In this document: positions 5,176 through 55,438 of the stretch, one piece after another
Layout: every line of letters begins with the position of its first letter
Numbering within the stretch: the first letter of the stretch is position 1
Assembly (NCBI GenBank): GCA_034521445.1
Contig: JAXHMM010000011.1
Coordinates: 62,001-126,000, forward strand
Origin: Balneolaceae bacterium
Lineage (GTDB): Bacteria > Bacteroidota > Rhodothermia > Balneolales > Balneolaceae
Direction: 5' to 3'
DNA length: 64,000 nt
Notes under the pieces: generated by a model
Databases searched by the model: none
What the model saw: only the letters and a program-made list of their open reading frames with translations
What the model was told of the DNA's origin: nothing
Program-made: the position numbers and the translations under genes

Positions 5176-5178
5176 GGG

Positions 5179-11014: not shown

Positions 11015-11031
11015 ACCGCAATTCCAGGGAC

Positions 11032-30621: not shown

Positions 30622-30969
30622 TGCGTAGCTCAAAAAGGTCAGGTTCCCATTTGAGCTAAGATAAAAAATTTGCGGGGGAGGTGCTTAACGGGATTTGCTA
30701 AATATTCGGTTGTCGGAGCTCTTCGCCAATTGTGGGTTAAGATATGCGGATAGCAGGACCGGTTTACGTGATCGCTGGACAATTCATATGAATAAACTCC
30801 GGTAGTTATGTCAAAATATTATATCAAGATATTATGCCTCCAAATCGGTGTGCTCACGTACCCTATCGCTAACTGACAGGCACTCCAGTTGCTTGATAAA
30901 CCATTATCGACTACGTTACTTGATGTAAGACTAGGTTAGGTATTTTTATTTTCAATAGCGGCTTTTATT
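30622..30969. other. guaB upstream region and composition boundary
   Basis: No gene is seen. The first 60-70 bases must hold the guaB promoter. From about 30,700 rightward the base composition drops sharply in GC and stop codons appear in all frames. This marks the left edge of the accessory region. Confidence 0.6.
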
Positions 30970-32683: not shown

Positions 32684-33397
32684 ATGGCAAGATGTACAGC
32701 GCCTGTAAGAGGGCATCGAACAGCTAGTGCGGCGGCAGCCTGTCCAGCCTGTGGAGGACGCTATCGCAGGTACAATTCTCACTCACATTATTCTTCATAT
32801 AGTAGTAGCTCTAGAAGCACAGGGGCTGGAAGTAGAAATTATGGGGGTGGGAACACAAGAAATGGAAAACCAAAATGGTCTAGCCCTAGTTCAAATATCT
32901 ATTATACACCAGCCGAGATTCGGACATTAACACCTATTCGTGAAAATATTGAAAAACGCTCAACTATACCTGACCTTCGCGACGTTTTTCTTTGTCACGC
33001 ATGGGATGACCGAAAAGATGCTGCGAAGGAATTACACGATTTACTTGATTCCAATGGAGTATCAGTATGGTTTAGCGAAAAGGATGTTTTGCTAGGTTCG
33101 TCATTACTTCGAAGAAATCGACAAAGGCTTGGCTAATTCGCGTGTTGGCATAGTACTGGTTACGCCATCTTTTCTGAATCCAGTAAAAAAGGAAGGTATT
33201 GCTGATAAGGAACTTTCGGCACTTTTAAGCACGTGATCGTACTTGTTCCTATTGTTCATAAAACAACATTCGAAGAACTTCGTGAAGTTAGCCCTTTACT
33301 CGGCTCAAGAAGCGGTCTGAGTACATTGGAAGAATCATTGGTGGATATTGCCTTTAAATTAGCCGAGTTGGTAGAAGTTGAAGAAGAATCTGCTTAA
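32684..33397 (+). pseudogene. Broken TIR-domain protein
   Basis: Starts at ATG 32684 as MARCTAPVRGHRTASAAAAC with a CPAC segment, a small Cys-rich head followed by a Ser/Tyr/Gly-rich linker. The TIR domain begins DVFLCHAWDDRKDAAKEL and continues GVSVWFSEKDVLLGSSL. A frameshift near 33,110 moves the reading to EIDKGLANSRVGIVLVTPSF, and another near 33,230 to VIVLVPIVHKTTFEELREV, ending EVEEESA at TAA 33395-33397. Undamaged, it would be about 237 residues. The catalytic-type glutamate expected in TIR NAD hydrolases would lie in the VSVWFSEKD segment. Related bacterial TIR proteins are NAD-consuming defence effectors, but that role is inference here. Confidence 0.75.
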
Positions 33398-33903: not shown

Positions 33904-34030
33904 CGTGCGAAACAAGGCGCATTAACCGCACCAGCCCTTGCTTTTCCGGGTAGATTCTACCAGATTCGAATTTCAATCACGGCTCAATGGTCCAACGGCC
34001 GGGCCGGTTACGCGCTACCACATTATAGGA
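33904..34030 (+). repeat. attC-like cassette recombination site I
   Basis: GCGCATTAACCG at 33917-33928 (L'') pairs with the reverse complement of CGGTTACGCGC at 34005-34015 (L'), leaving an extra T in the L'' arm as an extrahelical base, as attC sites have. A right-hand ATTATAGG box (degenerate GTTATAGG) follows. CCTATAA in site II is its complement, as expected if this is the start of the sigma-factor cassette. It is related in sequence to site III. Confidence 0.65.
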
Positions 34031-34134
34031 TCTTACCGATTTCATAACTTGTAGTTAGTTTTTGTTGTAACTTTTTCTTTATGTCTTGCATCTAAAGAGT
34101 GTACAATAAGAATACTCACTCAAAAGATTCTCTT

Positions 34135-34467
34135 ATGGAATTAATTTTACTCACTATTCTGGCCATCGCTTTTATTACAGCCATCTTTCTAACCTGGTTT
34201 TTTATTCATAAATCGAAGCAAGAAGAACGCCAGTTACTCATCGAAAAAGGTGTTGATCTTTCAGAATTACCAGAAAGAGGGATATTAAATTTCAATTTTC
34301 CGTGGCTGAAAATAGGATGTGTCTTAACAATAGGTTCTATCGGTTTGTTAATCGGAGTAATCTTGCAAGATACGATAGTAAAAGGAGGCGGTGAGCCCCT
34401 GCTGGGCATGTTAATATTTGGAGGCATCGGAATGATTGCTGCACATTTTATTGGTAATCGTAATTAG
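34135..34467 (+). CDS. Small membrane protein (DUF6249-like) in sigma-factor cassette
   Basis: A 110-residue protein from ATG 34135 (MELILLTILAIAFITAIF); a GTG at 34099 would add 12 residues. It has one N-terminal membrane helix, then a cytoplasmic loop containing KQEERQLLIEKGVDLSELP, and two further helices (VLTIGSIGLLIGVIL and MLIFGGIGMIAAHFIG). The layout fits the DUF6249 family, which is often encoded directly before an ECF sigma factor in Bacteroidota-type genomes. That is the arrangement here, with the next gene starting 12 bases downstream. A role in signal reception for the sigma factor is inference. The gene is intact and AT-rich. Confidence 0.65.
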   Translation: MELILLTILAIAFITAIFLTWFFIHKSKQEERQLLIEKGVDLSELPERGILNFNFPWLKIGCVLTIGSIGLLIGVILQDTIVKGGGEPLLGMLIFGGIGMIAAHFIGNRN

Positions 34468-34479
34468 AAGTCTTTGAAA

Positions 34480-35039
34480 ATGTGTGACTCATACATTCAA
34501 AAAGTGCTTGATGGAGATACCGATGCATTCCGATTTATCATAAAACAATATCAAGATGAAGCATATTCGCTTGCTATATCCGTAGTGAAAGATGAGTTTC
34601 TCGCAAAAGATGTGGCTCAAAATGCTTTTATAAAAGCTTATACCAAACTTGATACGTTCAAATGGAATTCAAGATTCTCCACTTGGTTGGTAAGAATCGT
34701 TATCAATGAAGCCTTTATTCAACTACGAAAACAAAAGAGGCAAACGAAGATTGCAGAGGGAATCTTGAAACAACCAACCGATCCACCATCAATTTATCTT
34801 CTGAAAAAATTGAAAAAGATAACCAGCGTTATTACATCAATGAAGCTTTAAAACAAATTCCTGCAAAGTATAGCCTGGCCTTGCGGTTGTTTTATCTTCA
34901 GGATTATAGCATCAAGGAAATCAAAGAAATTACGGGTTGGTCTATTTCTAATACGAAAGTCATTTTGTATCGTGCCAGAAATAAGGTAAAAACGCTTCTT
35001 GGTGAAATCTATAATATTGATAAAGAAGAATTGTACTAA
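34480..35039 (+). pseudogene. ECF-type RNA polymerase sigma factor, frameshifted
   Basis: From ATG 34480 the frame gives MCDSYIQKVLDGDTDAFRF and region 2 (KDVAQNAFIKAYTKLDTFKW, STWLVRIVINEAF). Near 34,795 it goes out of frame. The continuation in another frame reads EKIEKDNQRYYINEALKQIP, then ALRLFYLQDYSIKEIKEITG and SISNTKVILYRARNKVKTLL, a clear region 4 helix-turn-helix. It ends at TAA 35037-35039. One single-base indel accounts for the break, so this is either a recent pseudogene or a sequencing error. The stop overlaps the ATG of the next gene (TAATG), showing an originally coupled operon. Confidence 0.8.
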
Positions 35040-35431
35040 TGAAGCAATCAGACAAAGATCCATCTTTCAAAGAGTTGATGTCCCAAAGCAAACTGGAAAT
35101 GCCATTCCCAGACTTTGGAGATGAGGTAATATTACAGATAAAAAAGCAAGAAGAGCATAAAAAATCTTTATCACGCCATCTAAAAGTATCGTGGTTATCA
35201 TTCTTTGCGGGAACTATTTTGGGAATTGTTTTGACCATACAGCTATTTCAGCTAAGAATGGAAGGCTTGGGAATAAGTTCAGGAATGATAGAACTCATAT
35301 TCCAAATAGTATTCTCAGTATTTGTGATACTTAGCTTGGACTTATTAATACGATTTTCTATGGAAATATGGCCTGAAGAATTATTCAATATTAAGTCATT
35401 GAAAATTCCATTTTTGAATAATAAAAGTTAA
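35039..35431 (+). CDS. Membrane protein of sigma-factor cassette (anti-sigma-like position)
   Basis: A 130-residue protein whose ATG overlaps the sigma-factor stop. The first 50 residues are charged and cytoplasmic-looking (KELMSQSKLEMPFPDFGDEV). Two membrane helices follow (WLSFFAGTILGIVLTIQLF and IFQIVFSVFVILSLDLL). The position directly after an ECF sigma gene, the soluble N terminus and the membrane anchor suit an anti-sigma factor. No zinc-binding anti-sigma motif (HxxxCxxC) is present, and no family is recognised. It is the last gene before attC-like site II. Confidence 0.6.
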   Translation: MKQSDKDPSFKELMSQSKLEMPFPDFGDEVILQIKKQEEHKKSLSRHLKVSWLSFFAGTILGIVLTIQLFQLRMEGLGISSGMIELIFQIVFSVFVILSLDLLIRFSMEIWPEELFNIKSLKIPFLNNKS

Positions 35432-35460
35432 AACTTGAATATTAAGTAACAGCAACGCAT

Positions 35461-35601
35461 GGCCCTATAACCCGCACATTAAGGGGGACGTACCTCGCCC
35501 TTCCTTGCCAATTTTTACATCCTCAATTTCTGTAGTACATTTTGTTATTAAATTGACGTTAGTCTGCACACCCCTTATGCGCAATGTCGTTAAGTGGCCA
35601 C
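35461..35601 (+). repeat. attC-like cassette recombination site II
   Basis: Left R'' box CCCTATAAC (35463-35471), L'' GCACATTAAGGGG, and at the right end L' CCCCTTATGCGC with R' GTTAAGTGGCCAC (35589-35601). L'' and L' pair with an extra T in L''. The 18-mer TTATGCGCAATGTCGTTA at 35575-35592 recurs exactly in sites V and VI. It closes the sigma-factor cassette. Confidence 0.8.
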
Positions 35602-35626
35602 TTGAAACGACTCGAAAGTATAAACT

Positions 35627-37433
35627 ATGAGAATTAAATCAATAGACCTGACGGACTATCCTCCCATTGGTAAGTTCAAAATCGAAAACTTGGGAAGCAC
35701 CATAATTATTGCGGGTGCTAATGGATCCGGAAAAACGAGACTGAAGGAGGCTATCGTTCAGACAATACAAGGGAAGCCAGTTATGGATATGACTATAGAA
35801 GCTACCCGACCTGATGAAGAGGAAGAGAAATACTTTGGATCTCACGAGATTAGTGTCACTAAAGGGGTGAATAATGATAAGTTGAAAAACTATTTCAGGA
35901 GTCGGAGCTTTGGCCGAGGGCGTTATGTCGGTTCACTCGTTCAGATAGATTCTAATAGGAGTGTTGAGAATGTGAACTATTCTGCTGTGAACTGGCTAGG
36001 GGGAGATCCGGACGATCAGGAGACAGCGTCGAATTTTTACTTTTCGGCATTCCGTACAAGGTGGCAAGATTTCGTCAACTACATCCACCAAAAAACAGCA
36101 GCTCGCGGGAAGAAAATATCTGATGCCGTAATATCTGATCCTTCAAAGACTGGTGAAGAGGTGATTGCACTTCATCCAAATCCACTTGACAAGTACAAGA
36201 AAATATTTCGGGAAGCACTACCTGGAAAGGAACTACTGGACATAGACCCAAAGAGCCCCTCGTGATTTTCGATACTCAGATTCATCTGGACAAGAGCTTA
36301 ATTTCCAGACGTTGAGCTCTGGAGAGAAGGAGATCATTAAGGTTCTATTCGATGTCGCCAGAAAAGACATACGCCATTCAATTGTGATTGTCGATGAGCC
36401 AGAGCTTCACCTCCACCCGACCCTTACGTTTCAATTAGTCGAGTCCCTGAAAAGTCTCGGCGATCAGTACAAATCAATTCATATTTCTCACACACTCATC
36501 AGATTTAATAACCACATACTTCTCAACCGGAGATGTGTATTTCATAGATTCAGAAAATGATGGTACTAACCAAGCACATCGTCTGCTTGACCTAGTCGAG
36601 CAACACCACGAAATTGTACCCTTAATTGGGCAGAACATCGGCTTGTTCGCCGTCGGAAAGAAAATTGTATTCGTTGAGGGTGAGCATTCAAGCATAGATC
36701 GGCTTGCCTACCAGAAAATAGCTCAAAAAGTTGATAGCGAGATTCGGGTAGTACCTGCTGGTTCTGTTCTGAATGTATTCGCGCTAAGTCAGATTGAACG
36801 TCAGATTCGAACAGCCATTTATGTGGTATTGAGTTGTATATGGTTAGGGACCGAGACGGGTTATCTGATGATCAGGTCAGTAAACTCGAGGAGAACGGGC
36901 GAATCCGTTGCCTCAAAAGGCGACACATTGAAAATTATTTTCTCGACCCAGAAGTGCTAGCCGCGGTCGCGCAACGACTCTACATTAATAAGAGACATCC
37001 AGATGTCAATCGAGAGAGTGGATCGATCAATGTATCCAAGAGATAGTGCAAGAGTCAATAGGGTACACACTCTACAAAACCGTATGTGAGAACCTATCTA
37101 TGAATTATTCTATCCAGACATCCTAAGATATCTGATCTTCATAAAAAGACCTTAGATGATATCCGAACAGAGTTGCACAAGGGCGTTCTTGAGGGTGTAC
37201 GGGGTGTTGCCGACTCGTTAGATGATGCCAGTGTAAGTAGCTGGTTAGAGACTGAGTCGATGAACTTACAGCGCATGGTTGACGATGGTACATGGGTAAA
37301 GGGTTTCCACGGCAAGTACATCTTTAATCGTGTATGCAGTGAGGTCATGAGAGAGGATGCGATTCGAGTTAGGCACGCCTACGTTGACATAGCGCTCGAG
37401 CAATATCCGAATAAGATATCAGATCTGAATTGA
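35627..37433 (+). pseudogene. Broken AAA ATPase with TOPRIM/DUF4435-like C-terminus (OLD/PARIS-like)
   Basis: The first frame from ATG 35627 has the Walker A IIAGANGSGKTRLKEAI at about residues 27-43. After a frameshift near 36,260 come the ABC signature TLSSGEKEIIKVLFDV and Walker B HSIVIVDEPELHLHPTL. Further frames give TYFSTGDVYFIDSENDGT, then KIVFVEGEHSSIDRLAYQ, MVRDRDGLSDDQ and RCLKRRHIENYFLDPEVL. This SMC/OLD-type ATPase plus a TOPRIM-like 'VEGE...D.D...ENY' end resembles OLD nucleases or the AriA/AriB (DUF4435) pair of PARIS in one chain. At least four frameshifts disable it. It fills one cassette between site II and the R'' box at 37,507. Confidence 0.65.
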
Positions 37434-37506
37434 CATATATAACCAAATGTAAGTCACTTTATAATATTTAAGCCGAATGAAGTACGATGGTCTAAGTACG
37501 AAAACA

Positions 37507-37519
37507 GTGGCCACATAAC
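37507..37519 (+). repeat. R''-type box of a truncated attC site
   Basis: GTGGCCACATAAC matches the reverse complement of the cassette's own first bases (GTTAAGTGGCCAC, 35589-35601) at 12 of 13 positions. This identifies it as the left edge of that cassette's attC site. No matching L' and R' boxes follow in the next 130 bases, so the site is probably interrupted or eroded. Confidence 0.6.
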
Positions 37520-37949
37520 CGTATATATGGCCTCCAATGTCAAGGGCAATAGCATTCCCTGCAAGAAAGGGAAGTCCTTTCTCCCCGTTTCAGATTCGAC
37601 CCTTTTCTATCGACACTGTTCTGCAGGTATTTTTCAATTTGGGATGGCAGCCACATGACTGCACCAAACATATATAGAGGTTCGACGGAAACGGGCGGAA
37701 TTCATTCCACATCCCGTTCTCCGGTCCTGCTTATTGCGGTGACGACCATAGAGAATATTACGTTCCCTGAACCCGGATGATCACGCGGATGGCTATGGGC
37801 AGATGTCTCCGCCTATTCCAGTTATGGGACATCTCGGAGCAGGGGCAGCACATGCCGATTTCACCGGCAGCGAGCGAGCTGACGGGAATCGAATCAAATC
37901 CAAGGGCAACTACCGCATCCAACGGGGCGCCAGAGGTCGGCTTTTGGGC
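37520..37949. other. Non-coding stretch left of the IS110-type remnant
   Basis: No gene recognised. A short inverted pair (CCCTGCAAGAAAGGG region near 37,555-37,575) and mixed GC content are seen. It probably contains the left flank of the inserted IS110-type element and the interrupted remainder of the preceding attC site. Confidence 0.35.
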
Positions 37950-39174
37950 TTAGCCAGTCATTGAAGTGATCGAGCTGGTCGTTACAGAGCGGTAACTGGT
38001 CAAAAGCTCTCGCCTGGGTGCCTCAGTTATACGTCGGGCTTGCGGCAGCGCCCCATTCATACAGCTTTCCTGGTTGGGTGTTTTAATCCAGAAACGTGTA
38101 TTCATTAAATGGTTCGGATCGTTTGAGCATGTAGTAGACGGCCGTGCCCAGACGTTTGGCCAGGATCGTAAGGCAGGCTTCGGCTTCAGCCATGCCGGCA
38201 GATCAGCCTGTCGGTAGTACCGCCCGGCAAGATCATTGCGCCCCGCACATATAACAGCGCGGCTTCTGAGAAGGCCCAACGCAACTGCGCATTGCCGATG
38301 CGTCCGCCCGTGCTGCCATAAGACCTTCCCGGCCGAGGACTTTCTGCCCCTTTACCAAACGGGCGTAGGAGCAGAACTCTCCGCGAGAGGGAAACCGCCG
38401 GATGTCGTGAATCTCATAGAGCATCGTCAGCGCCAGTACATCACCGACTCCCCGGATGCTTCGCAGAAGGTGCAAACTGGTCGGTCGTGTCCCTCTGGCC
38501 AGCCGCAGGATCTGGCTGTCCAAGGCCTTGATGAGAGGATCGTAGTGGTCGATCATTTGAAGGTCGGCCTCCACGATAAAGCCGGACGACGGGATCCGGG
38601 ACATGCCCGACGATATCTTTACCCCGGCGGTGATGGGAACGCGACAGGGTGCCCAACGCGGGCAGGTTGTAGCCGACCGGCGTGGTATTCTGGACATGGG
38701 CCAGCAGTTCGGCCCGTTTGCGCACAAAATGCGTGCGCCGGCGCATCAGATCCCGGGCCGGTCGCATACGGGCCGGATAATAATAGGCGAGGGAAATTGC
38801 CGCCCCGCAGCAGCCGCGCAATTTTCAGTGAAGTCGATGCGGTCGTTCTTCGTCTTCACCCCATGAATGGGGATCTCATGTAGAGAGCATGACCCAGTAC
38901 AAATTCGATCCCCTCCCGATCACACAGATCGGCCAGCCAATACCAGCAAAAAAATACACTCCACGCCTACCAACAGCCCTTCCCGGTATGGGGTAATGGC
39001 AGCCAGAAACCAGTCCGGATGGCATGGCATGTTTTTGTGATAGACCGTTTGTCCCTCTTGGTTCAGGATACATACGTACATGGTCCTCTGCAGCTGCAGA
39101 TGCCCACTTGACTGCGCGGGAATCGCTTCGCTCGGAGCGCAGTAAAATAGATGTTGTTTAAGGTATACGTTCAT
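37950..39174 (-). pseudogene. IS110-family transposase remnant
   Basis: The minus strand, read through several frameshifts, gives an IS110 (DEDD) transposase. Its N-terminal part is QRTMYVCILNQEGQTVYHKN, then YREGLLVGVECIF and LADLCDREGIEFVLGHALYM. The middle is LAYYYPARMRPARDLMRRR and KRAELLAHVQNTT. The C-terminal transposase-20 domain reads LRSIRGVGDVLALTMLYEI and FPSRGEFCSYARLVKGQKVL. The tail continues in other frames (DLAGRYYRQADLPAWLKPK). At least five frameshifts make it inactive. Insertion ends are not defined; IS110 elements often lack clear terminal inverted repeats. It lies between a half attC site and attC-like site III. Confidence 0.78.
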
Positions 39175-39238
39175 GGCTTTCCTCTTTGGTTTTATTGAGG
39201 TTGTCCAGAACCCTGATCTGACGATTCCGAGAGGAGGC

Positions 39239-39374
39239 CGGTGAACAATATCAAGGCGCATTAACCGGACCGGACGGAAATTTGCTTTTGCCGGTCGGAT
39301 CTGCCAGATTGGAATCTACGCGCCTGGCTACAGCTTCACTGAACCGGCCGGTTATGCGCTACCACGTTATACTC
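39239..39374 (+). repeat. attC-like cassette recombination site III
   Basis: L'' GCGCATTAACCGGACCGG (39256-39273) pairs with L' CCGGCCGGTTATGCGC (39344-39359), leaving an unpaired T and an unpaired A in the L'' arm only. The R' box GTTATACTC begins at 39366. The 15 bases from 39366 are exactly complementary to 43456-43470 in site IV. Confidence 0.8.
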
Positions 39375-39498
39375 AATTTTTCATATCTATAGCAAAATTT
39401 CACTATTAAACTACTTCTCTAAGGATGACACGTACTGTCACAAATAACAATTACATTATTAAAACAAGACTAGAAATCAGTGACTAAAAACTGCAAAT

Positions 39499-42400
39499 AT
39501 GTCTAAAATTAATACGATTCAAAATAAGATACTTGAATTAAGCGGAGGACGATTTCAAGAAGTCGGCCGATTTGTATCTGAAAGCCAAAGGATATCAACA
39601 TATCAATAGTATTGGTTCAGTTTATGGCAAAGACAAAACTAGATCCGGTACACCAGATTCATTTATCTCACTTCCTGAATGGGAAGTATGTTTTTGCAGA
39701 GCACACTAACGAATGAATCCCGCTATTTGTTCAACAAGTTGAAGGATGATATAAACAAATGTCTTGATGTTGAAAAACATGGTATATCCGTAGAAAAAAT
39801 TGAAAAAATCCTTCTTGTTATACCGGAAGGTTAGCTCCGAAATGAAGAAAGTGAGCTTAAGAGAATTAGCGCATTCAAGGGGAGTATTTTATACGATCTA
39901 TTTAATCTTGAGGAAATCTCAGAATGATCTCTACTCACTTTTTTCCAAAAATTGCCAAAGATGAGCTTGGGATTAAGATTGATACCGGTCAGCATAGTTC
40001 AGCCAGCCGATTTCATTAAAATCCATGAGGATTCCAAGTATTTCAACTCCTCTGAGTTTAGACCTTCAGTTTAGAGAGACTGAAAAGATAATGCACTAAA
40101 GAAATTGGCTGATCACGATCTTTTGATTTTATCCGGTCCGGCTGGCGTGGGAAAACAAGATTGGCGTCCAAGTAGCAAAAGATTTCAAATCTGGCAACTC
40201 CGATTTCAATCTATGGTGCATATTCAAAAGAACAGCAGATCTTTGGGAGGATATACAGGATTATTTTTCATCTCCTGGTAAATATTCGATTATCGTTGAT
40301 GATGCCAATCGGATTAACAGTTTTTCATATGTGGTAGATTTTCTCAAGCATGCAAGTCCAAACCATGATATCAAAATTATTGCCACAGTCAGAGACTATG
40401 CATTATCAAAAGTAAAAAATGAGGCCTATCTGGAGGTGGACTTAGATGAATTAAACATAAAACCACTCACAGATGATCAAATAAAAGAGATTGTAAAAGT
40501 ACAGTTTGAAATTTCGATAAATCATCTTTTTCTCGATCGTATAGTTCAGATTGCAAAAAGGTAATCCGAGACTGGCCGTAATGGCTGCGTGATGTTTGCA
40601 AGAAAAGAGGATTCCATTTCGGCAATTAGCGATGTATCTGAACCATATATGATCAAATATTTCAAGTCCGGTCCACGATGATATTTTCAATGATGCGAAT
40701 CTCAATGGTAAGACAGATTTGAGTAGTCAAATTTTGTTAAAAACTTGCATCTATTATTTCTTTTTTCAAAGCCGTTGACCGTGAGAATGAAGAAATGATG
40801 AGCCTGATTGAGCAAGTGTTAGGCATTTCTAAAAAATGAGTTTTGGGAAGCAGCGTTATTTCTTCATGAGACCGAGTTTGTCTGACATGTATGAAAATAT
40901 CGTTCGCATGTCTGATCAGGTACTTGGAACATATTTCTTTTATCTATGCTTATTTAAAAAGAACTTAATTGAATTTGGTATGCGATCTCAATCATACCTT
41001 TCCTCAGTTTAAACATAGAATTGTTGATTCGTTAAATCCCTGACTTCTAAGTTCATTTGATCATCGCTCAAATTTTTGAATCAATTAAACCAGTAGTAAG
41101 CACACGTATTAACCATTTTCGGAAAAGAAGGCGATACAGGAAGTGTACATGATTTGATTGGAAACATTTTGGTTTGTAAATGAAACAGAAACGCTTCTTT
41201 TTGCAAAATCATTAATCGAAGAGACAACTTCTGAAAGGATCTGATTGATCAAGTTCAGTTTACTATCGACAAGAACTGGACCTCCTGACCGATCCAAGTC
41301 CTATCCTTATTGAAACCTTTTTCGAACGCTGAGCCCCGAAAACATTTGGAATTGCTATAGACCTAATTCTGGACTGATGCCGAAAAAAAGCCCTTCTGAA
41401 GTGCCAAAGATATTGGGTGTTTTAACTCGAGATTTTGGATTTAAACTGCACTCCTATAGAAGAAGGTTTGAGGTTCAGGAATTGGTAGTCGAAAAATTAA
41501 TCCAAAGAATATCCAAGGGAGAGGATCTTTTTAGATACACCTTTCTTGCTGTGAGCCGGTCTATTTTTAAAAACGCAGTTTGAATCATCTGGAATGAAAA
41601 AGACAATCGAACTGTACAGATTCACGAGGTTTTCCCACTTCCGTTGTCGTCCGATACAAAACAAACAATTGCGAAATAAAAATATGGCAACACATTTTTG
41701 AATTGTCAGAAAACTGGAAAGTACAGAGAAGAAGTTTTGAAGCTAGTTCGAAGCGTATTCTCAGCCACATTTGGAATTTGAAGAAGAAGTGGAACTTGTA
41801 GTATGGGAAAGCGATCTACGCGCTTTCGCATTTATCTTAGATGCTTGCAGAGAGAAGCAGTGGCGAGTATGATGGATGTCAGTGCTTTTCAAAGCTACCT
41901 TGACCTCCTCGACACAGTATACAATGTTACTGATGAGAAATCACTCCGTGAACAATACGCGAATGACATTTATCAAATTTCTGAAATATTCTTGCCAGAG
42001 AATGGGGAGTCAGGGATTCTGGAAGAAAAAATACATGGAAAGAATTTCATAAGCAGGAAAAAGTGCTCGACGCAAACGAGTTTATTGAGAGCTACACCAT
42101 AGAAGATTTTGTCGAATTGATTGTATGCATGTATAGTTATCTGAAAGAATCGCAGCAAAAGACAGATCTGATATATTGAGAAGTCTTAGGCTTCTAGTTA
42201 GTATTTGAGATATCGACTGCATTCCGAATTCCGATCTCTTTCTAGAAGCAATTCGATACTATTTGTCTATTGGAGATCCATTTAATATTAGGGGCAGGGA
42301 AGTAATAGAAAGTTGGCTTAACACTTGAAAAGCCAAATGTCGTTTTGGAGTCAATTGAAGGTTTTGAATTTTCGAATAAAGACCGTTGGATCTTCTGCTA

Positions 42401-43408
42401 TTATGAAGCACTTCCTGAAACAGAAAATTACTAAAATAGATACGAGTAATTTATGCGTACGAGACAAATTCCGTAGAGGCCAAGAATCTTCCAAGAGACT
42501 GGAATTATCTTACAAAATATACTTCTCAGGATAATAAAGCAGTTGAAACTGTACTACAAACACTAGTAGAGAGAGCAAAAGAAAATCCCGATGTTATTTC
42601 CGCACTGGATATGTTATTTCTAAGTTTTGAAAATATTGAGTCTCTCATAAGAGAGTACTCCAGAAGAAGTGTTTGGAAGCGGTAAAAAAAGCCTACCTTT
42701 TAGTTTCTGCAAAAAGAAATCATACTGACTATAAGGGCACCACCCTCTAATCTTTTACTTGATCGAGACATTGATTTTATCGAGGAGTTTATAAATTCAA
42801 TGTATCCCGAGGATACTGATTATATAAACGAGAGAGGGGACAATCGTGATTTTGCCTTCGTTTGGGATCGTGATGATTATATAAAGATTATCGATTTAGC
42901 GGTTGATCAAGTATATATGAATGAACAAAAGTCCAAAGCGTTTTGGGAGAGTAAATTACAAATATTTTTTGATGCCAATTTCAAAGAAAACACATCAAAA
43001 GAAGTCCAAGAGAAACAAATCCAATATCTGAAAGAATGCATCTCAAGTAAGTGTGAACAGATTCTAATTCCTTCAGTTTATTTTCCAAAATCATTAAAAA
43101 AGCTTCCTTCCAAAAAACGTCGAAATCTTATCGAATTATTTCTTAAGTCGGTAATCCAAGTACGTATGGACGATTTTAAAACTCTTCAGCTTGAGCCCAG
43201 TTCATGGGGTGGTGTTGGTAGCATGGTACCAGTTTTTTCGGGTAGAATTAAGTTTTTCGAATCATTATTACCACTGATGAATAGTGCAGATTTACTTTCT
43301 CACAAACAACTTATTGAAACCAAAATTGAAAGCTTGGAAGTAGATCTTCAAAGAGAGAAAAAGAGAGACTTTTTGAGTAGATTGATCTTTAAAATTTCAA
43401 TTCTTTAA
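39499..43408 (+). pseudogene. Broken nuclease-STAND NTPase (nSTAND3/Avs-like)
   Basis: From ATG 39499 the reading begins MSKINTIQNKILELSGGRFQ. After shifts come KGYQHINSIGSVYGKDKTRS, GTPDSFISLP (39647 on) and GKYVFAEHT, a PD-(D/E)xK-like nuclease core. The NTPase follows, with Walker A LILSGPAGVGK near 40,130-40,160 and Walker B YSIIVDDANRI near 40,285. Then come IKIIATVRDYALSKVKNE, DELNIKPLTDDQIKEIV and a long helical C-terminal sensor region running to FLSRLIFKISIL at 43408. Intact relatives of about 1,250-1,300 residues are large STAND ATPases resembling antiphage Avs proteins. At least ten frameshifts or stops are present. The whole gene is one 4.1-kb cassette. Confidence 0.65.
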
Positions 43409-43460
43409 CCAAATGGAAGTTGCTACCAATATCATCATAAAGCTGAATCGAAGTGAAAAT

Positions 43461-43609
43461 TGAGTATAACAACGGTTTCAACGCGGACTTGGCCACTGTT
43501 TGCCCTTTTTAAAATTTGTCCGACGAATAGCGTCAGTCTAGATTTTTGAATCTGACATAGGATGTCCCAGTAATGCAAGCCGGTTATGCTCGCAGGCCGT
43601 TATAAGGCA
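43461..43609 (+). repeat. attC-like cassette recombination site IV
   Basis: Left box TGAGTATAAC at 43461-43470; AACGCGGACTTG on the left arm pairs with CAAGCCGGTT on the right arm with one extra A, and the R' box GTTATAAGGCA starts at 43599. TATAAC and GTTATA form the outer stem. It closes the STAND cassette and opens the CPBP cassette. Confidence 0.72.
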
Positions 43610-43677
43610 GAAACATATAGAAAAATGTTTGAACACAGGATGATATTTTTACAGCAATTTGATTAAGGAGTCATGCT

Positions 43678-44703
43678 ATGAAAAACTTTATCAAATCTCA
43701 TCCCATTATAAGCTACACCCTAATTACATTTGCTCTTTCCTGGTTCTTTTGGGGTAGTTCAATAGTTGTAAACTTTTCTGATGATATTTTTCTTGGCGTA
43801 ATTTTAGTTGGGGGATTTGGGCCTGCCATTGCGGCTTTTATCATGATGCACATTCAGTCAGAAAAGAAAATAACCCTAGGCAGCAACAGGTTATTCTGGT
43901 CGTTTTCCTTTATTGCTATTGTAGTAGTTGTTGTTACATATTTTTTAGTTCAGGGTTCCACCGATGAGGCTTGGGGAACTAGTATTTGGTCTGGCTTAAA
44001 GGAACCAGGATTACTAGCTATATTCCTCATCACAGCTTGTTGTCTTTTTTGGGGGCTCCTGGTTAGTAATGCTTACAATGGAGATCTTAAGGAGAATTTT
44101 CTAACCTCTTTTCTATTTCAGAATAAAAAAATCAAATGGTATGTCTTTGCTTTATTACTTTTTCCGGCAATTTATTCGTTAAGTTTTGGTGTCGGCAAAC
44201 TATTAAACTTTAACACAACAGAAGCAATATTTTCTCCTGATACTAATTTTTTTATAAGTTTCATACTTACCTTCATTTTTACGGGTGGCAATGAAGAGTT
44301 TGGGTGGAGAGGATTTTTTCAAAAAGAATTACAAAAAAAATACTCTCCGCTGTTCAGTGCTTTTGTTATAGCGATCGTTTGGGTTCTTTGGCATTTACCC
44401 TTGCACTATAATGGATTTTATCCCTCTGAATTTAGCTTTACTTCCCGTTTTGCACTGGGATTTCAAATGGCTTTACTGTATACCTGGCTGTATAACAAAT
44501 CCGGCTATTCTCTCCTGAGTGTCGTTATACTTCACGCTATGTATAATAATGTGTCAGATATCTTTGGATCTTCATATGTGCCTGCCATGTCGATAGGAAT
44601 CGTGCTAGTATTAATTTTTATTATCGAGGATAAAATGTGGGTTAAAAAGAGCTATCATGATAATATTTATCAGTCAAGTGCTTTAAGCCAAGAATCTACG
44701 TAG
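43678..44703 (+). CDS. CPBP-family intramembrane glutamic protease (Abi-like)
   Basis: A 341-residue membrane protein with about eight hydrophobic segments. It carries the CPBP/CAAX-protease motifs: motif 1 GGNEEFGWRGFFQKEL (Glu-Glu-x3-Arg), motif 2 VWVLWHLPLHYNGF (conserved His) and motif 3 SVVILHAMYNNVSD (His-x3-Asn). Family members cleave prenylated or membrane substrates, and some are bacteriocin self-immunity proteins. The substrate here is unknown. The gene is intact, AT-rich and the only gene of its cassette, with attC-like sites 68 bases upstream and 21 bases downstream. A GGAG-type ribosome-binding sequence (AAGGAGTC) precedes the ATG. Confidence 0.88.
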   Translation: MKNFIKSHPIISYTLITFALSWFFWGSSIVVNFSDDIFLGVILVGGFGPAIAAFIMMHIQSEKKITLGSNRLFWSFSFIAIVVVVVTYFLVQGSTDEAWGTSIWSGLKEPGLLAIFLITACCLFWGLLVSNAYNGDLKENFLTSFLFQNKKIKWYVFALLLFPAIYSLSFGVGKLLNFNTTEAIFSPDTNFFISFILTFIFTGGNEEFGWRGFFQKELQKKYSPLFSAFVIAIVWVLWHLPLHYNGFYPSEFSFTSRFALGFQMALLYTWLYNKSGYSLLSVVILHAMYNNVSDIFGSSYVPAMSIGIVLVLIFIIEDKMWVKKSYHDNIYQSSALSQEST

Positions 44704-44724
44704 CTACAATCCCATTTTTAATTA

Positions 44725-44861
44725 TGCCATATAACCCACGCTCCAACGGGACACACCTCGCCCGGGCTTGCCACTTATCTGGCTTTTTAACTCTTCGTTC
44801 ATTTTATCTAATAAATCAACATTCATTCGCGTGCAGCTTATGCGCAATGTCGTTATATGGC
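44725..44861 (+). repeat. attC-like cassette recombination site V
   Basis: Outer boxes GCCATATAAC (44726-44735) and GTTATATGGC (44852-44861) are perfect inverted repeats. The 18-mer TTATGCGCAATGTCGTTA at 44838-44855 is identical to that in sites II and VI. TGCCATATAAC differs at one base from the complement of the CPBP cassette's start (43599-43609). Confidence 0.82.
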
Positions 44862-45048
44862 TTAAGTAGCTATCAAAACAGTAAGGGGGCTTCGGTAAGT
44901 TACTTTCATTTGAGAGCGATTTTCTTCAAGTTGCCCTTATGATTTATCAGAATAACCTGAAGAAAACGTATGACCGAAGTTAGTATAAGATCAACCGCAT
45001 TGGGGTTATGCCAATGTTAGTGCCCATTTTAAATATCATAAATACATT

Positions 45049-45636
45049 ATGGAAAAAGACGACATTAAATTTACCGCCAAGCATTTAGCTAAAAAACTTA
45101 AACTGCGAAATGCAAATTCCGAAGTCGTAAAAAGACATAATAAACTAAAGGAAATCTATGATGATGACCCAGAAAAAGCGTTAATCATAGATTCAGCAGT
45201 AGTTGAAGGTGAAAACTTGGATGATCCATTTCATTCTAAAGTTCTAATGAATGATGAGCTAAAATTACCACTTAAAACGGGTCTCCATAGAGCTGTGGGC
45301 GGTGACCACGATTACTCAACACCCGGAGACATTTTATGTGCCGCATTGGCTGTTTGTTTGGAAAGTACCATAAGAATGATTGCAGATAGATTAGAAATTC
45401 AATTGGATCACACAAAAGTGTCAGTTGGAGCCCATCTTGATGTTCGTGGCACATTAAGGTTTAATGACTCTGTTCCTGTAGGATTTCAAAAAATAAATGT
45501 GGAGGTAGAATTAGGTTCAGACAATGTAGGAGAAAAGGTTATAAATACTTTATTTAGTGCTGCAGTAAAAAGTTGCGTGGTCTATCAAACTTTAAAACCT
45601 GGTATTCCAATAGAAAAAAACTTGAAAATAATGTAA
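45049..45636 (+). CDS. OsmC/Ohr-family protein
   Basis: A 195-residue protein whose second half is the OsmC fold. The first redox cysteine is in DILCAALAVCLESTIRMIAD and the second in AAVKSCVVYQTLKPG, the usual pair of thiol-dependent peroxidases. An N-terminal extension of about 50 residues is Lys-rich (KFTAKHLAKKLKLRNANSEV). Family members reduce organic hydroperoxides in the cytoplasm; the specific substrate is unknown. The gene is intact and forms a single-gene cassette between attC-like sites V and VI, 188 bases after site V. The long leader may hold the promoter. Confidence 0.82.
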   Translation: MEKDDIKFTAKHLAKKLKLRNANSEVVKRHNKLKEIYDDDPEKALIIDSAVVEGENLDDPFHSKVLMNDELKLPLKTGLHRAVGGDHDYSTPGDILCAALAVCLESTIRMIADRLEIQLDHTKVSVGAHLDVRGTLRFNDSVPVGFQKINVEVELGSDNVGEKVINTLFSAAVKSCVVYQTLKPGIPIEKNLKIM

Positions 45637-45682
45637 ACCAATCTTGAATTGTCATAAACACCGGCTATAGCAAACAAGATCT

Positions 45683-45817
45683 GCCATATAACCCGCGCAT
45701 TAACGCGTACGCACCTCGCCAATTCCTTGCCAGCTCTTGGTTTTAAGGCTCCTCTTTCGTTAGTTGCTAATTTAACATTAATCCGTGCGCAGGTTATGCG
45801 CAATGTCGTTAACTGTC
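45683..45817 (+). repeat. attC-like cassette recombination site VI
   Basis: R'' GCCATATAAC (45683-45692) is the exact complement of the OsmC cassette's first ten bases (44852-44861). L'' GCGCATTAAC pairs with L' GGTTATGCGC with an extra T. The 18-mer shared with sites II and V is at 45794-45811. R' GTTAACTGTC starts at 45808. Confidence 0.82.
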
Positions 45818-45852
45818 GATGCCTTTATTCAATCAACCATAACTAGCAGTAA

Positions 45853-46769
45853 ATGAATACCCTCAATAATATTAGCTGTATAACCTTGACCTTACTTATG
45901 ATGTGGGGTTGTAGCATACAAGATCAGGATGAATATCGAGTGGAGATTACCGCATATGACTACGCATTTCAGGCTCCTGAGGAACTACCCTCTGGATGGA
46001 TCACCTTTATTTTAAATAATGAACAAGCTCATGAAATTCATGAATTAAGTTTTGCCCGCCTCCCCGAAGACATTACCTACAAAGAGTATCTGGATGAATA
46101 TGTTGGAGCATGGGAAATTTTATTGGAGGAATTTCAGGCTGGTGAAGTTGAACGATCCGGTATTTCGACAGCGAGTAAATGAACTGTTGCCAGACTGGGC
46201 TGATGCCGTGAAATATGTGAACGCCCGGGGACTGGTTTCTCCGGGACGATCAGCCGAAAAAACCGTTTATCTGGAACCGGGATTGTATGCTGTGGATTGC
46301 TGGGTTAAAACGGAAGATGGTATTATTCACCTCAGTAATGGCATGACGCGGTCTCTTACTATAACGGAGGAGTCTACGAACAGCCCTGAACCTTCTGTCG
46401 AATAATATTATTACACTGAAAGAAAATGAAATCGATATTAATTGGAATGCACAAGTCGGTTTCCATTCTTTTGCTGTACTCATGGAAGCAGATTCTTTGG
46501 GAAATCCAGTTCATAATAATATCCATCTGATCAAAACAGAGGAAAGTACCAATCTGAATGAAGTAAATACATGGATGGATTGGTACAAAGTTGGAGGACT
46601 CAGAGCTCCCGCTCCGGCTGATTTCCTTGGGGGTGTTAGTACTTATAATGCCATTCCCGGTGAAAGTGCTACTTACTTCTCTTTAGAAATTGATGAACCT
46701 GGAGAATATGCTTGGATCGTTCAGGGACCGGAAGGTGAACAATTGTGGAAGACGTTCAATATTCCATAA
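45853..46769 (+). pseudogene. Frameshifted two-domain lipoprotein (cupredoxin-like fold possible)
   Basis: Starts at ATG 45853 with a type II signal (ISCITLTLLMMWGCSIQDQ; lipobox cysteine). The first domain has YRVEITAYDYAFQAPEELP and GWITFILNNEQAHEIHELSF. Out-of-frame continuations follow: DPVFRQRVNELLPDWADAV and SPGRSAEKTVYLEPGLYAVD. The third frame has INWNAQVGFHSFAVLMEADS and PGEYAWIVQGPEGEQLWKTF, ending at 46769. The repeated beta-rich pattern with 'GxY...C/W' turns resembles two cupredoxin-like domains, but copper ligands are not clear. Two frameshifts (near 46,150 and 46,400) disable it. It is the last cassette of the array. Confidence 0.6.
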
Positions 46770-46823
46770 AACGGTCTAAATCTTGTAAAATTCCTCTTTG
46801 TTGTACCTGATTTAGAAATACGT

Positions 46824-46960
46824 GACAGTTAACAAGCGATTCGTGCAGACCGGTTCAAGATTTTGCCCTACTTCAATGTTGGTCGCCCTGAAAGCTTCCC
46901 CTCAAACAGCCACGCCCATGATCACGGAAGAGATCAAAAATGCCGGTTAAACAACTTGCT
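46824..46960 (+). repeat. attC-like site VII, R'' box clear, right half uncertain
   Basis: GACAGTTAAC at 46824-46833 is the exact complement of the lipoprotein cassette's first ten bases (GTTAACTGTC, 45808-45817). AAGCG spacing and an ACCGG box follow. A GTTAAAC box near 46,949 fits the GTTRRRY consensus, but the inner arms do not pair well. It probably marks the right end of the array. Confidence 0.5.
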
Positions 46961-47120: not shown

Positions 47121-48158
47121 TTAATAACGCGATCGGCTTTTGTTGGCAAATCGTACCAGGGAAAGCATCACCGGTACTTCAATCAGAACCCCGACCACGG
47201 TTACCAGGGCTGCGCCTGACTGGAGGCCGAACAGTGCAATGGCAACGGCCACAGCCAGCTCAAAAAAGTTGCTGGCGCCGATCATTGAGCCGGGGGCGCA
47301 CACCTTGTAGGGCAGCCCGATCCACTTTCCGCCATACCAGGCGATCGCAAAGATGAAATAGGTTTGAATAAGTAATGGAATGGCTATAAAGAAGATGGCG
47401 GTGGGCTGATCAATAATCCTGTCTCCCTGGTAGGCAAATAACAGTATGAGCGTAATCAGCAGGGCTGAAACTGACACCGGCTTGAACTTTGGCAGAAAGC
47501 GGTTGAGGTACCAGTCTTCCCCTCTTCTTTTAACCAGTATTTTATGTGTCAAATATCCGGCGGCCAACGGAACCACCACAAATACAAGCACGGAAGCCAC
47601 CAGCGTGCCATACGGGATGGTGATATCGGTAATGCCAAGCAATAATCCCACGATGGGAATGAACAGAATTAAAATCAGCAGGTCGTTCACCGAAACCTGC
47701 ACGAGGGTGTAGTTGGGATCACCATCCGACAGATACGACCAGACAAAAACCATCGCCGTACAGGGAGCAGCCCCCAGTAAAATAGCCCCGGCGATGTACT
47801 GATCCGCCAGTTCCGGGCTCAACCATGCCGAATACAAATGATCGAAAAAGATCCAGGCGAAAAAGGCCATGGTGAAGGGCTTTATGGCCCAGTTGATGAT
47901 GACGGTCCAAACCACCCCCTTGGGCGATTTACCGATCTCTTTGAGTGATCCGAAATCAATTTGAAGCATCATCGGGTAGATCATCATCCAGATCAGGATG
48001 GCGACCGGTATGTTGACCTTGTAGATCTCCCACTTGCTCAGCTCTTCTATGCTGTCACCGGCCAGGTAGCCGACCCCGATTCCTATGGCTATACAGAGCA
48101 ATACCCATACCGTCAGGTATCGCTCAAAAAACGCCATTTTCTTTTCGTTACCGCTCAT
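47121..48158 (-). CDS. acr3: ACR3-family arsenite efflux permease
   Basis: Inner-membrane arsenite exporter of the bile/arsenite/riboflavin superfamily, about ten membrane segments, 345 residues. It has the ACR3 features SIEELSKWEIYKVNIPVA, ILIWMMIYPMMLQIDF, GAAPCTAMVFVWSYLSDGD with the conserved cysteine, and IGASNFFELAVAVAIALFG. It begins MSGNEKKMAFFERYLTVWV. It follows arsA by 34 bases. Pairing of arsA with an ACR3 permease instead of ArsB is known in some operons; the ATPase could energise it. Confidence 0.95.
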   Translation of the reverse strand: MSGNEKKMAFFERYLTVWVLLCIAIGIGVGYLAGDSIEELSKWEIYKVNIPVAILIWMMIYPMMLQIDFGSLKEIGKSPKGVVWTVIINWAIKPFTMAFFAWIFFDHLYSAWLSPELADQYIAGAILLGAAPCTAMVFVWSYLSDGDPNYTLVQVSVNDLLILILFIPIVGLLLGITDITIPYGTLVASVLVFVVVPLAAGYLTHKILVKRRGEDWYLNRFLPKFKPVSVSALLITLILLFAYQGDRIIDQPTAIFFIAIPLLIQTYFIFAIAWYGGKWIGLPYKVCAPGSMIGASNFFELAVAVAIALFGLQSGAALVTVVGVLIEVPVMLSLVRFANKSRSRY

Positions 48159-48192
48159 GCTGAAGTTTTTATAGAGATGTTAAAATTCCGAT

Positions 48193-49965
48193 TCACGCCA
48201 ACTCTTTCTCGCCCGGAAAAGCCATGCTATGTGCTACCGAGTCGCCATGAATCCAGGGAATGGAATAGAGCTGGTTGGCTTTCTCATTTTGAATGGTTTC
48301 CAGGATGGGCAACTCTTCTTTTGCCCGCTGCACCAGCAGGGGATCACTCACCTCGGTTGCAGAGAGACTCTGATTGACGATCCACCCATAGGGCTCAATA
48401 TCGGCCCGGCGCAAATCTTCCTGAAGGTGCGCCGCTTCGTTCACCGGCGTGGTTTCGGGCAGCGTTACAATCAGCAGCCGGGAGTGTTCCGGATCCTGCA
48501 GATACATGTAGGGGGTTTTCAAGTGGCTTGCATCCATATTCGTGTTTCGCATGATCTCCCGGTGATAGCTGCCTGCCGTATCAAGCAAAAGAAGCGTGTG
48601 CCCTGTCGGGGCTGTATCTACCACCACAAACTGGCGTTTCGCTTTTTGGATGGCTTTGGAGAATGCGTGAAAGACGGCGACTTCTTCGGTGCAGGGAGAC
48701 TCCAGATCTTCCCGAAGGAGCTTGCGTCCCTCTTCATCCATATTTTTCCCCTTCTGGCTCATCACCTTTTCGATGTAGTTTTGTGTCTCCTTCTTAGGAT
48801 CAATGCGATCAACGGTGAGATGATCTTTGGCGTCCTTATCTCCCAAATGATCCATGAGATGTGCAGCCGGATCGGTGGTGGTGAGATGAACCGGATATCC
48901 CTTATCTGCAAGTTTCAGGGCCACGGCAACGGCTACGCTCGTTTTTCCAACACCGCCTTTGCCCATGGTCATGATCAAACCATGGTCCTGCCGCGTGAGG
49001 TCTTCTATCAGGTCATTCAGACCGGGTAATGTGGCGAGCGGCTCTTTTTTCAGATCATCGGAATGACTGGCCATGATCTCGTCTTTCTCAAGCGGTTCGA
49101 ATACTTTTCGAAGCTTATCAATGCCGAGAATGTTATACGGGCGAAGCGGAAATATCTCCCGGTCCAGGTGTTGAATGCTCTCCGGCATCTGTTCGATGGC
49201 CTGATCGGCGGTTTTCTTCATTTCCAATGCGACAGGATCGCCTAAATCCAAGGGCTCAAAATATCCGTTGATCAGCAGCAGTTGACTCGAAAGTCCAAGA
49301 TCATCCAGTTCCCTGCTCGATCTGGCGGCTTCTTTAAGGGCGGACGTTTCGGGGCGGCTCACCAGGTAAACCGTGGTGGCATCCCCATCGCGAAGCCGGC
49401 TTACCACTTTCTCGTATAGTTCCTTGCTGCTTTTGAGAGAGGAGGTTGGACCCAGGCAGGAAGCGCCCTCCGGATTTTTATCAATGAAGCTGCTCCACGC
49501 CGCCGGCAGTTCCAGCAAACGCAGTGTGTGCCCCGTGGGAGCGGTATCAAATACCACGATATCATAGTCCTCGCCTTCGTGCTCGCCGGCTACGAAGCGG
49601 GAAAATTCATCGAAAGCGGCGATTTCGGTGGTGCAGGCCCCGGAAAGCTCTTCTCTTATTTTATTGAGCTGATCGGCTCCGAGCACATCCTCAAGGGGTT
49701 CCAGCGTGCGGTTTCGATACTCTTCAGCCGCAATTTCAGGATCAATATTGATGGCCTCCAGGCCGCTTACGCCTTCAATGGGCTGAACCTTATCGTTTAC
49801 GTTGCTCTGCAGCACATCACCCAGGTTCGACGCCGGATCGGTACTGATCAGCAGCACGCGATTTCCTTCATCCGCCAGCTTCACCGCCGTGGCACATGCA
49901 AGCGTCGTTTTTCCAACGCCACCCTTGCCGGTAAAAAAGATGTATGGGGTAATCTTGGATAACAT
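48193..49965 (-). CDS. arsA: Arsenite-transporting ATPase ArsA
   Basis: Soluble ATPase that drives the arsenite permease. The 590-residue protein is a tandem duplication. Each half has a deviant P-loop (FTGKGGVGKTTLACATA near residue 12 and MGKGGVGKTSVAVAVA near residue 330) and a DTAPTGHT signature (VVFDTAPTGHTLRLLELP; VVVDTAPTGHTLLLLD). The metal-binding cysteines are in SGACTTEIAAF and ESPCTEEVAVF. The gene follows the arsD-fusion gene by 52 bases. Length and motifs are standard. Confidence 0.96.
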   Translation of the reverse strand: MLSKITPYIFFTGKGGVGKTTLACATAVKLADEGNRVLLISTDPASNLGDVLQSNVNDKVQPIEGVSGLEAINIDPEIAAEEYRNRTLEPLEDVLGADQLNKIREELSGACTTEIAAFDEFSRFVAGEHEGEDYDIVVFDTAPTGHTLRLLELPAAWSSFIDKNPEGASCLGPTSSLKSSKELYEKVVSRLRDGDATTVYLVSRPETSALKEAARSSRELDDLGLSSQLLLINGYFEPLDLGDPVALEMKKTADQAIEQMPESIQHLDREIFPLRPYNILGIDKLRKVFEPLEKDEIMASHSDDLKKEPLATLPGLNDLIEDLTRQDHGLIMTMGKGGVGKTSVAVAVALKLADKGYPVHLTTTDPAAHLMDHLGDKDAKDHLTVDRIDPKKETQNYIEKVMSQKGKNMDEEGRKLLREDLESPCTEEVAVFHAFSKAIQKAKRQFVVVDTAPTGHTLLLLDTAGSYHREIMRNTNMDASHLKTPYMYLQDPEHSRLLIVTLPETTPVNEAAHLQEDLRRADIEPYGWIVNQSLSATEVSDPLLVQRAKEELPILETIQNEKANQLYSIPWIHGDSVAHSMAFPGEKELA

Positions 49966-54282: not shown

Positions 54283-55224
54283 ATGATGTTTGATTATACC
54301 GCGACCTACACCGACCAGTACCAGGTTACGATGTCCCAGGTCTATTTTCACAAAGGGATGAGAGATGAGACGGCCATTTTTGACTATTTTTTTCGAAAAT
54401 TACCGTTCGAAGGTGGTTATGCCGTATTTGCCGGTCTCGAAGATCTTCTGAATGCCCTTGAAAATTTCCGCTTCGACCAAAAAGACCTGGCGTTTTTGGA
54501 AAAGGAAGGGATGGACCGGGATTTTCTCGACTATCTTGAAGACTTCCGGTTTACGGGAAATATATATGCCGCAAAGGAGGGCGACCTCATCTTTCCCAAC
54601 CGGCCGGTGCTTAGTGTGGAAGCACCCATTATTGAAGCACAGCTTCTTGAGACGCTCACCCTTAATACGCTCAACTACCAGTCCTTGATCGCCACCAAAG
54701 CCAGCAGAATGAGGCTATCGGCCGGAAACCGTAAACTTGTGGATTTTGGATTGAGACGGGCTCCGGAACCGGCGGATATTCGGCCAGCCGCGCAGCCGTC
54801 ATCGGCGGATTTGACGCCACCAGCAATGTGCGCAGCGGACGCGATTACGGCATCCCGATATCGGGCACCATGGCCCACTCATTCGTGCAGCGCTACGATA
54901 AGGAGATAGATTCGTTCCGGGATTTTGCTGAAATACGCCCCCACGACGCTGTATTTCTTGTGGATACCTACGACACGTTAAAAAGCGGGGTGCCGAATGC
55001 GATTACGGTGGCGAAAGAGATGGAAGAGCGCGGTGAAAAACTCAAAGGCATCCGGCTCGACAGCGGTGACCTGGCCTGGCTGGCCAAAGAATCACGGGAA
55101 ATGCTGGATGAAGCCGGGCTGGACTATGTTAAAATTGCGGCCTCCAACCAGATTGATGAGCATATAATCAAGAGCCTGCTCAGCCAGCAAGCTCCCATCG
55201 ACCTGTTTGGGGTGGGCACGACGC
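54283..55224 (+). pseudogene. pncB: Nicotinate phosphoribosyltransferase, frameshifted and truncated
   Basis: Makes nicotinate mononucleotide from nicotinate in NAD salvage. From ATG 54283 the frame gives DYTATYTDQYQVTMSQVYF, VFAGLEDLLNALENFRF, PNRPVLSVEAPIIEAQLLET and LLNTLNYQSLIATKASRMRL-like residues (NTLNYQSLIATKASRMRL). A frameshift occurs near 54,760; the continuation SASRAAVIGGFDATSNV and GRDYGIPISGTMAHSFVQRY shifts frame again. It then gives FLVDTYDTLKSGVPNAI, IRLDSGDLAWLAKESREML and IAASNQIDEHII. It stops resembling the family after DLFGVGT near 55,218, about 100 residues early, where the sequence changes to the reverse of a P-II-like gene. Confidence 0.85.
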
Positions 55225-55229
55225 CTAAT

Positions 55230-55436
55230 GCACGCCTCGTTTTGGATGGAGAAGAAGAGCGTGGAGTAGACGCCGTAGCGGTCCTGTGCAAACCAGTTGG
55301 AGATGTCCGGCTGGTGCTCTTCTGTCCGGAAGCCGTGGATCTCCGTTTCGCTGTAGATGGGTACCTTCTGGCGGGCCAGGATTTTCCGTACGTCGTTGGT
55401 GTATTCTTCGATGCTGAGGATGATGAGCAGTTTCAT
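55230..55436 (-). pseudogene. Truncated P-II-like small protein of efflux cluster
   Basis: The minus strand from ATG 55436 reads MKLLIILSIEEYTNDVRKIL, then KVPIYSETEIHGFRTEEHQ and RYGVYSTLFFSIQNEA. This resembles small P-II/DUF3240-type proteins encoded next to RND efflux genes. After FFSIQNEA, at about 55,230, the sequence becomes the reverse strand of pncB, so the normal C terminus of about 30 residues is missing. The start is five bases after the probable end of the RND gene, so they were once one operon. Confidence 0.45.
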
Positions 55437-55438
55437 AG

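Follow-up and report, generated by a model that had tools for sequence, protein, structure and literature searches.

An attI-headed gene cassette array without an adjacent integrase gene in a Balneolaceae genome

How cassette arrays come to stand in a chromosome without an integron integrase is an open question, and it is raised by one locus in the genome of a Balneolaceae bacterium. The sequence analysed (the window) is a 64,000-nucleotide stretch, positions 62001–126000 of contig C11 of a 3.2-Mb draft genome (G000) in 18 contigs; coordinates given without a contig name refer to the window. A preliminary description, made from the letters alone, had recognised six attC-like sites in one orientation at 33904–46960 and had interpreted them as an integron-type array without an integrase, that is, a cluster of attC sites lacking an integron integrase (CALIN). 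This identity was borne out, and we consider it very probable that 30.8–46.9 kb is an integron cassette platform that no longer contains an intI, be it still served in trans or not.

The attC sites were assessed with a covariance model (R1) built from 11 aligned sites of contig C6 only, none of them from the window; 83.7% of the arm cells of these 11 sites are paired, compared with 26–40% when the arms are slid by 1–3 columns. Searching the 64-kb window with R1 returned exactly six attC and none beyond them, all on the plus strand between 33907 and 45815: attC I (33907–34029; 38.7 bits, E 1.8e-7), II (35464–35593; 44 bits, E 9.5e-9; R and L boxes intact), III (39245–39373; 36.4 bits, E 6.5e-7), IV (43463–43606; 22.1 bits, E 0.002), V (44728–44859; 19.2 bits, E 0.011) and VI (45685–45815; 42 bits, E 2.9e-8). 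With all filters off, these six remained clearly apart from noise, the next match having E 0.12. The preliminary description had named at least four sites scoring as attC as the outcome that would support it, and six did so with a model trained elsewhere. Its two additional partial sites received no support from the model, and one of them (near 45001–45019) sits within the OsmC cassette described below, in both copies of it. The 18-mer TTATGCGCAATGTCGTTA does occur in exactly three window copies, one of them in attC V, compared with 0.02 expected even with two mismatches allowed, and the attC alignments show the additional base, which is confined to the L'' side.

These sites thus have the anatomy of attC, with R''/R' boxes, paired L'' and L' arms, a one-sided extrahelical base and a GTT core. 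The R' core is kept in five of the six; in attC I, R' has changed to ATTATAG and the G of the cleavage triplet is gone, so reads the sequence, and this site is probably dead. Within the six window sites alone, five pairs in the R/L arms show double changes, which was found in none of 500 shuffles. That the paired elements are a chance or repetitive extragenic palindromic (REP)-like family would fit their unremarkable single-strand folding energies, which had no discriminating power (z from −0.8 to −2.2 for the window sites, compared with +0.2 and −1.8 for two attC next to IntI). This explanation is scarcely credible, being refuted by the independent model, the covariation, the extrahelical base on L'', the homology of a cassette from attC to attC and the occurrence of the same sites beside a true IntI. 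Rfam gave no relevant match at gathering or relaxed thresholds, and a simple script matching L arms was discarded, as it recovered the good sites together with many false positives.

No IntI was found in the window by tblastn with 20 IntI proteins, as had been described. The genome-wide intI search that the description had proposed revealed one intact IntI, at C6:714806–715750, which is intact over 322 residues and scores 433 bits with TIGR02249 (cut-off 265). A cassette array whose attC are canonical is found upstream of this gene on the opposite strand. Across the genome R1 detected 25 attC: 13 beside intI on C6, six in the window, three at C11:9779–13043 (minus strand) and single sites on C5, on C3 and at C6:363 kb. 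Base pairs of the R/L arms covary strongly across all 25, and comparison of the sequences supports the assignment of the window sites to the attC family of the genome's own integron. IntegronFinder 2 defines a CALIN as two or more attC without an integrase (PMC9024848); the window array is one by this definition, because its sites are attC of this family and no intI is adjacent. This label is incomplete, since the genome keeps an intact intI elsewhere and the array has retained an attI at its head.

The attI came to light when the detached arrays were compared with the intI locus, and the 251-bp stretch that separates intI from the first C6 cassette was then searched against the whole genome. 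Only three copies exist in the 3.2 Mb: the C6 copy beside intI, one at C11:13826–14043 (79% identity) and one in the window at 30792–30940 on the plus strand (77% identity, E 4.9e-24 genome-wide); the next-best match has E 0.37. Each copy heads an attC array on the same strand, and only that on C6 has intI. Homology among the copies stops at the crossover core (ATG|TTAGG, AGG|TTAGG and ATG|TTATG), as expected because everything past the crossover is cassette. In the window this core, GTTAGGT, begins at 30935, with G|TT between 30935 and 30936, and the GC content falls there from 0.64 to 0.33; it is 0.40 within the array and 0.55–0.62 in the surroundings. The attI together with the GC drop therefore places the start of the array near 30.94 kb and not at 33.9 kb, so that the attC part of the extent described earlier holds while the array begins about 3 kb further left. 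Thus, of the parts of a complete integron, the window has attI at the array head, and the intI adjacent to such an attI is found on C6.

The presence of attI bears directly on how the array arose, for which off-target insertion, integrase loss and rearrangement have been proposed in CALINs generally (PMC8618304). Had cassettes from the C6 array been inserted serially at an attG-like site, as in the first of these origins (Cury et al., as summarised in PMC8618304), the array would never have had an attI. Single attC sites on C5, on C3 and at C6:363 kb do look like such events, and those on C5 and at C6:363 kb are possibly off-target cassette insertions. An attG origin predicts no attI at all, whereas the window array starts with a 149-bp copy and the second C11 array has one at its head too, which makes this origin very improbable here. 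Rearrangement, in which one large integron was split and the window holds the distal part of the C6 array, is likewise a proposed CALIN origin (PMC8618304) and would account for the shared attC family; it would leave a single attI in place of the three diverged copies (77 to 80% identity) that are seen, and, with the window located deep within a 186-kb contig, its array is not the product of an assembly break. We regard a split as very improbable. The attI at the head thus speaks against both pure off-target insertion and the simple splitting of one array. The single attC sites in question (C5:380697–380821 and C6:363221–363347) lie far from any attI match. A 3' flank common to both C11 arrays amounted to only 34 bp at 88% and was not used as evidence.

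The same arrangement recurs among 59 relatives, of which 27 have intI above the cut-off and 35 have sites matching the attC model. The intI-linked attI leaders of 20 genomes were compared, on the same strand only, with 3.5-kb upstream segments of 22 arrays or single attC that lack intI, those of G000 included, and, as a control, with the 3.5 kb behind the arrays. Nine intI-less heads (two in G000) matched attI at E<1e-4, compared with E 0.002 for the best tail. Genome-wide attI searches of nine relatives and G000, which were not conditioned on arrays, gave 13 detached copies (two in G000), and 11 of the 13 have a same-strand, model-supported attC 0–4.5 kb downstream, two of them by weak attC matches (E 0.003 and 0.014). 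The relatives also display stages of integrase loss: two intact intI in G054, a truncated intI beside attI in G034 (C1:699.8 kb), and, in G018 and G043, arrays with remnants of the C or N terminus. Frames of ~106–136 residues that match only the N-terminal 90 residues of IntI occur at G034 C1:699805–700077, G006 C1:91199–91483, G024 C1:13585–13866 and G002 C76:598–870, and could be either truncated integrases or a retained protein of the N-terminal domain.

Insertion of cassettes by IntI-mediated attI × attC recombination is established integron chemistry. In the history that we propose, such insertions would have built the window array, in which an attI precedes about eight cassettes, most of them decayed, with attC between them, and the platform would either once have had its own intI or have been copied as attI plus cassettes. 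A past loss of intI at this locus is suggested by the stages seen in relatives, no remnant being detected locally. The C6 IntI may still act on the window array in trans, since it adjoins attC of the same family; in that case, cassettes at the intact attC II, IV, V and VI could be excised, and new ones inserted at the window attI, by this enzyme. CALIN cassettes can be mobilised in trans (PMC12444791, PMC9668308).

A stronger version of trans service is that one IntI in this family serves several attI-headed arrays dispersed along the chromosome, so that the detached arrays are working satellites and not relics, and platforms for capture and expression multiply independently of intI. The probability given above for an integrase-less platform covers present trans service or its absence, and overlaps with this stronger version. 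In its favour are the ratio of three attI arrays to one intI in G000, with more than three such arrays in G034 and G031, and the mostly intact genes of the detached arrays at C11:9.8–13 kb and on contig C11 of G021. G034 has its linked attI and five others, one of which is ~95% identical to the linked copy over exactly the 147 bp of the attI module, with unrelated sequence replacing the intI side upstream. Identity among attI copies is also concentrated in two blocks that flank a diverged middle; this hints at constraint without establishing it, as the blocks were chosen post hoc and their p-values are optimistic. Set against this are the decay of much of the window array and the consideration that selection may date from when each platform had its own intI. 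Working satellites thus seem to us a real possibility, if one that falls somewhat short of an even chance. In G034 a ~550-bp repeated unit with a small open reading frame extends up to the crossover of two detached attI (79% between the two; L151 ~10590–11130 minus and L153 ~4770–5321 plus), part of it also at a third (L124), so that attI may there have been copied along with an upstream segment.

Several observations weigh against a platform that has lost its own integrase and may be served from C6. No intI remnant could be detected next to either of the two detached attI on C11 (tblastn; local alignment no better than shuffles), attC I and III look inactivated, and the genome is a draft in 18 contigs. 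A detached attI of G021 is closer to the attI of a sister species than to its own intI-linked attI, and thus recognition in trans is not to be assumed everywhere.

The window platform is like other CALINs in having two or more attC in one orientation, cassettes between them and no intI nearby, and differs from them in the attI at its head and in the intact IntI that the genome encodes on a different contig, next to attC of the family seen here. On C6 the IntI, attI and attC array resemble sedentary chromosomal integrons, such as the complete one reported for Salinibacter ruber M1 (PMC9024848), except that attI-headed arrays are here present at three loci with one intI. In the text available of a study on Xanthomonas (PMC12444791), CALINs away from ilvD are likewise detached and placed elsewhere on the chromosome, and their genomes may retain intI; that text mentions no attI at their heads, whereas attI stands at the heads here, repeatedly across a family. 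An attI away from intI is also a feature of delta-attI-type cassettes of class 1 and 2 integrons, where it was shown to be recombined by IntI1 (PMC12901181). In those cassettes attI replaces the attC behind a cassette gene, in contrast to the longer attI that heads arrays at separate loci here. The literature covered, which was partial, contained no report of attI-headed CALINs and no paper that names both integrons and Balneolaceae. CALINs are already known; to the extent of this coverage, what is new is the recurrence across a family of arrays that start with attI and lack intI, several attI being present for each intI. Beyond the well-known classes, attI is not routinely annotated. That attI stands at the heads of many such arrays and not behind them suggests that, in this family, these arrays are former platforms or satellite ones, and the check for attI at heads is a simple test for any genome with a known intI-linked attI. 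If detached attI were active, one integrase would feed several expression points, and cassette dosage and gene order in chromosomal integrons would have to be rethought.

A case for cassette movement is provided by the unit carrying an intact OsmC gene (45049–45636, plus strand; Pfam OsmC). The unit at 44832–45708 aligns with the second C11 array (89% over 881 bp, blastn) in a match that sets in where one attC ends and runs to where the following one starts, and the neighbours of the unit differ on both sides between the two arrays. In the second array, OsmC is followed by a truncated attC. The two gene copies have 0.054 nonsynonymous (dN) and 0.178 synonymous (dS) substitutions per site, and the dN/dS of 0.31 (NG86) indicates purifying selection on both. 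Homology from attC to attC across two arrays is what marks a CALIN unit as a mobile cassette, and on comparison of the two copies the OsmC unit fits one, which would have been exchanged between platforms or acquired from a common source. Within a toxin cassette of the second array there is a transposase-like gene, apparently of the IS1595 kind (C11:11.3–12.6 kb).

Site III, one of the two that look inactivated, is split by an insertion. A decayed IS110-family element (37520–39254, minus strand; Pfam Transposase_20, PF02371) lies between R'' (~37511–37518) and L'' of this site, so that the coordinates given above cover the L''/L'/R' part, from which R'' is displaced. When the flanks were joined in a script they gave a normal attC, GCCACATAACCGGCGCATTAACC, and the profile score rose from 24.6 to 31.3 bits. 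The transposase gene has seven indels and two in-frame stops; here and below, such counts come from a frame-tracing script whose penalties are arbitrary. The element is the sole such copy in the genome, and a second junction of its right end with an attC L'' lies on C3. Insertion sequences of the IS1111-attC group are directed to one end of attC (Tetu and Holmes 2008, Post and Hall 2009, as cited in PMC11187229). The window element combines an IS110-family transposase with an insertion inside attC and resembles this group as an IS110-superfamily element at one attC end, with the same junction at two loci; it differs in being decayed and in occurring as a single copy plus one 50-bp remnant.

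That most units hold one gene, as the preliminary description had it, is true in part, with exceptions in the three genes after site I, in the attC at 39245 split by the opposite-strand insertion element, and in several genes that are broken. The cassette genes, all on the plus strand, begin with a broken TIR-domain gene of Thoeris ThsB-like type (32684–33396; PADLOC ThsB model 226 bits, Pfam TIR_2; two frameshifts). Next is the unit at 34135–35431, which encodes a DUF6249-like protein (PF19762 at 31.8 bits, just below the cut-off of 33), a sigma-70 factor with one frameshift (Sigma70_r2, Sigma70_r4_2) and a small membrane protein. It is followed by a broken OLD/AriAB-like ATPase gene (35627–37433; three indels, two stops; PADLOC AriAB and PtuA-like fragments, Pfam AAA_21), a large pseudogene of 3.9 kb (39500–43408), an intact gene for a CPBP (Rce1-like) membrane protease (43678–44703; PF02517, E 1e-16) and, after OsmC, the last unit of the array, a broken lipoprotein-like gene (45853–46769; two frameshifts) for which no Pfam match was found. 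The array thus once carried defence-like genes, ThsB-like and AriAB-like, that are now broken. Some indels in the TIR, sigma-70 and last-unit genes, which have indels only, could be assembly errors. Sequencing error as the sole cause of breakage was considered for the gene at 39.5–43.4 kb and is ruled out by ~13 in-frame stops besides ~15 indels.

The genes of the intI-linked array on C6 look intact, unlike those of the window array. At C6:703892–713645 this array holds many genes of toxin–antitoxin type (several ParE toxins, Fic, PIN) as well as ferritin and cupin genes. Outside the window array, genes at 54283–57810, named from their translations as a nicotinate phosphoribosyltransferase and an RND-type efflux gene, appear to be frameshifted and contain no in-frame stops, a pattern suggestive of local assembly errors. 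Immediately right of the array, at 47121–49965 on the minus strand, translations indicate an Acr3-type arsenite transporter-like gene and an ArsA-type ATPase-like gene.

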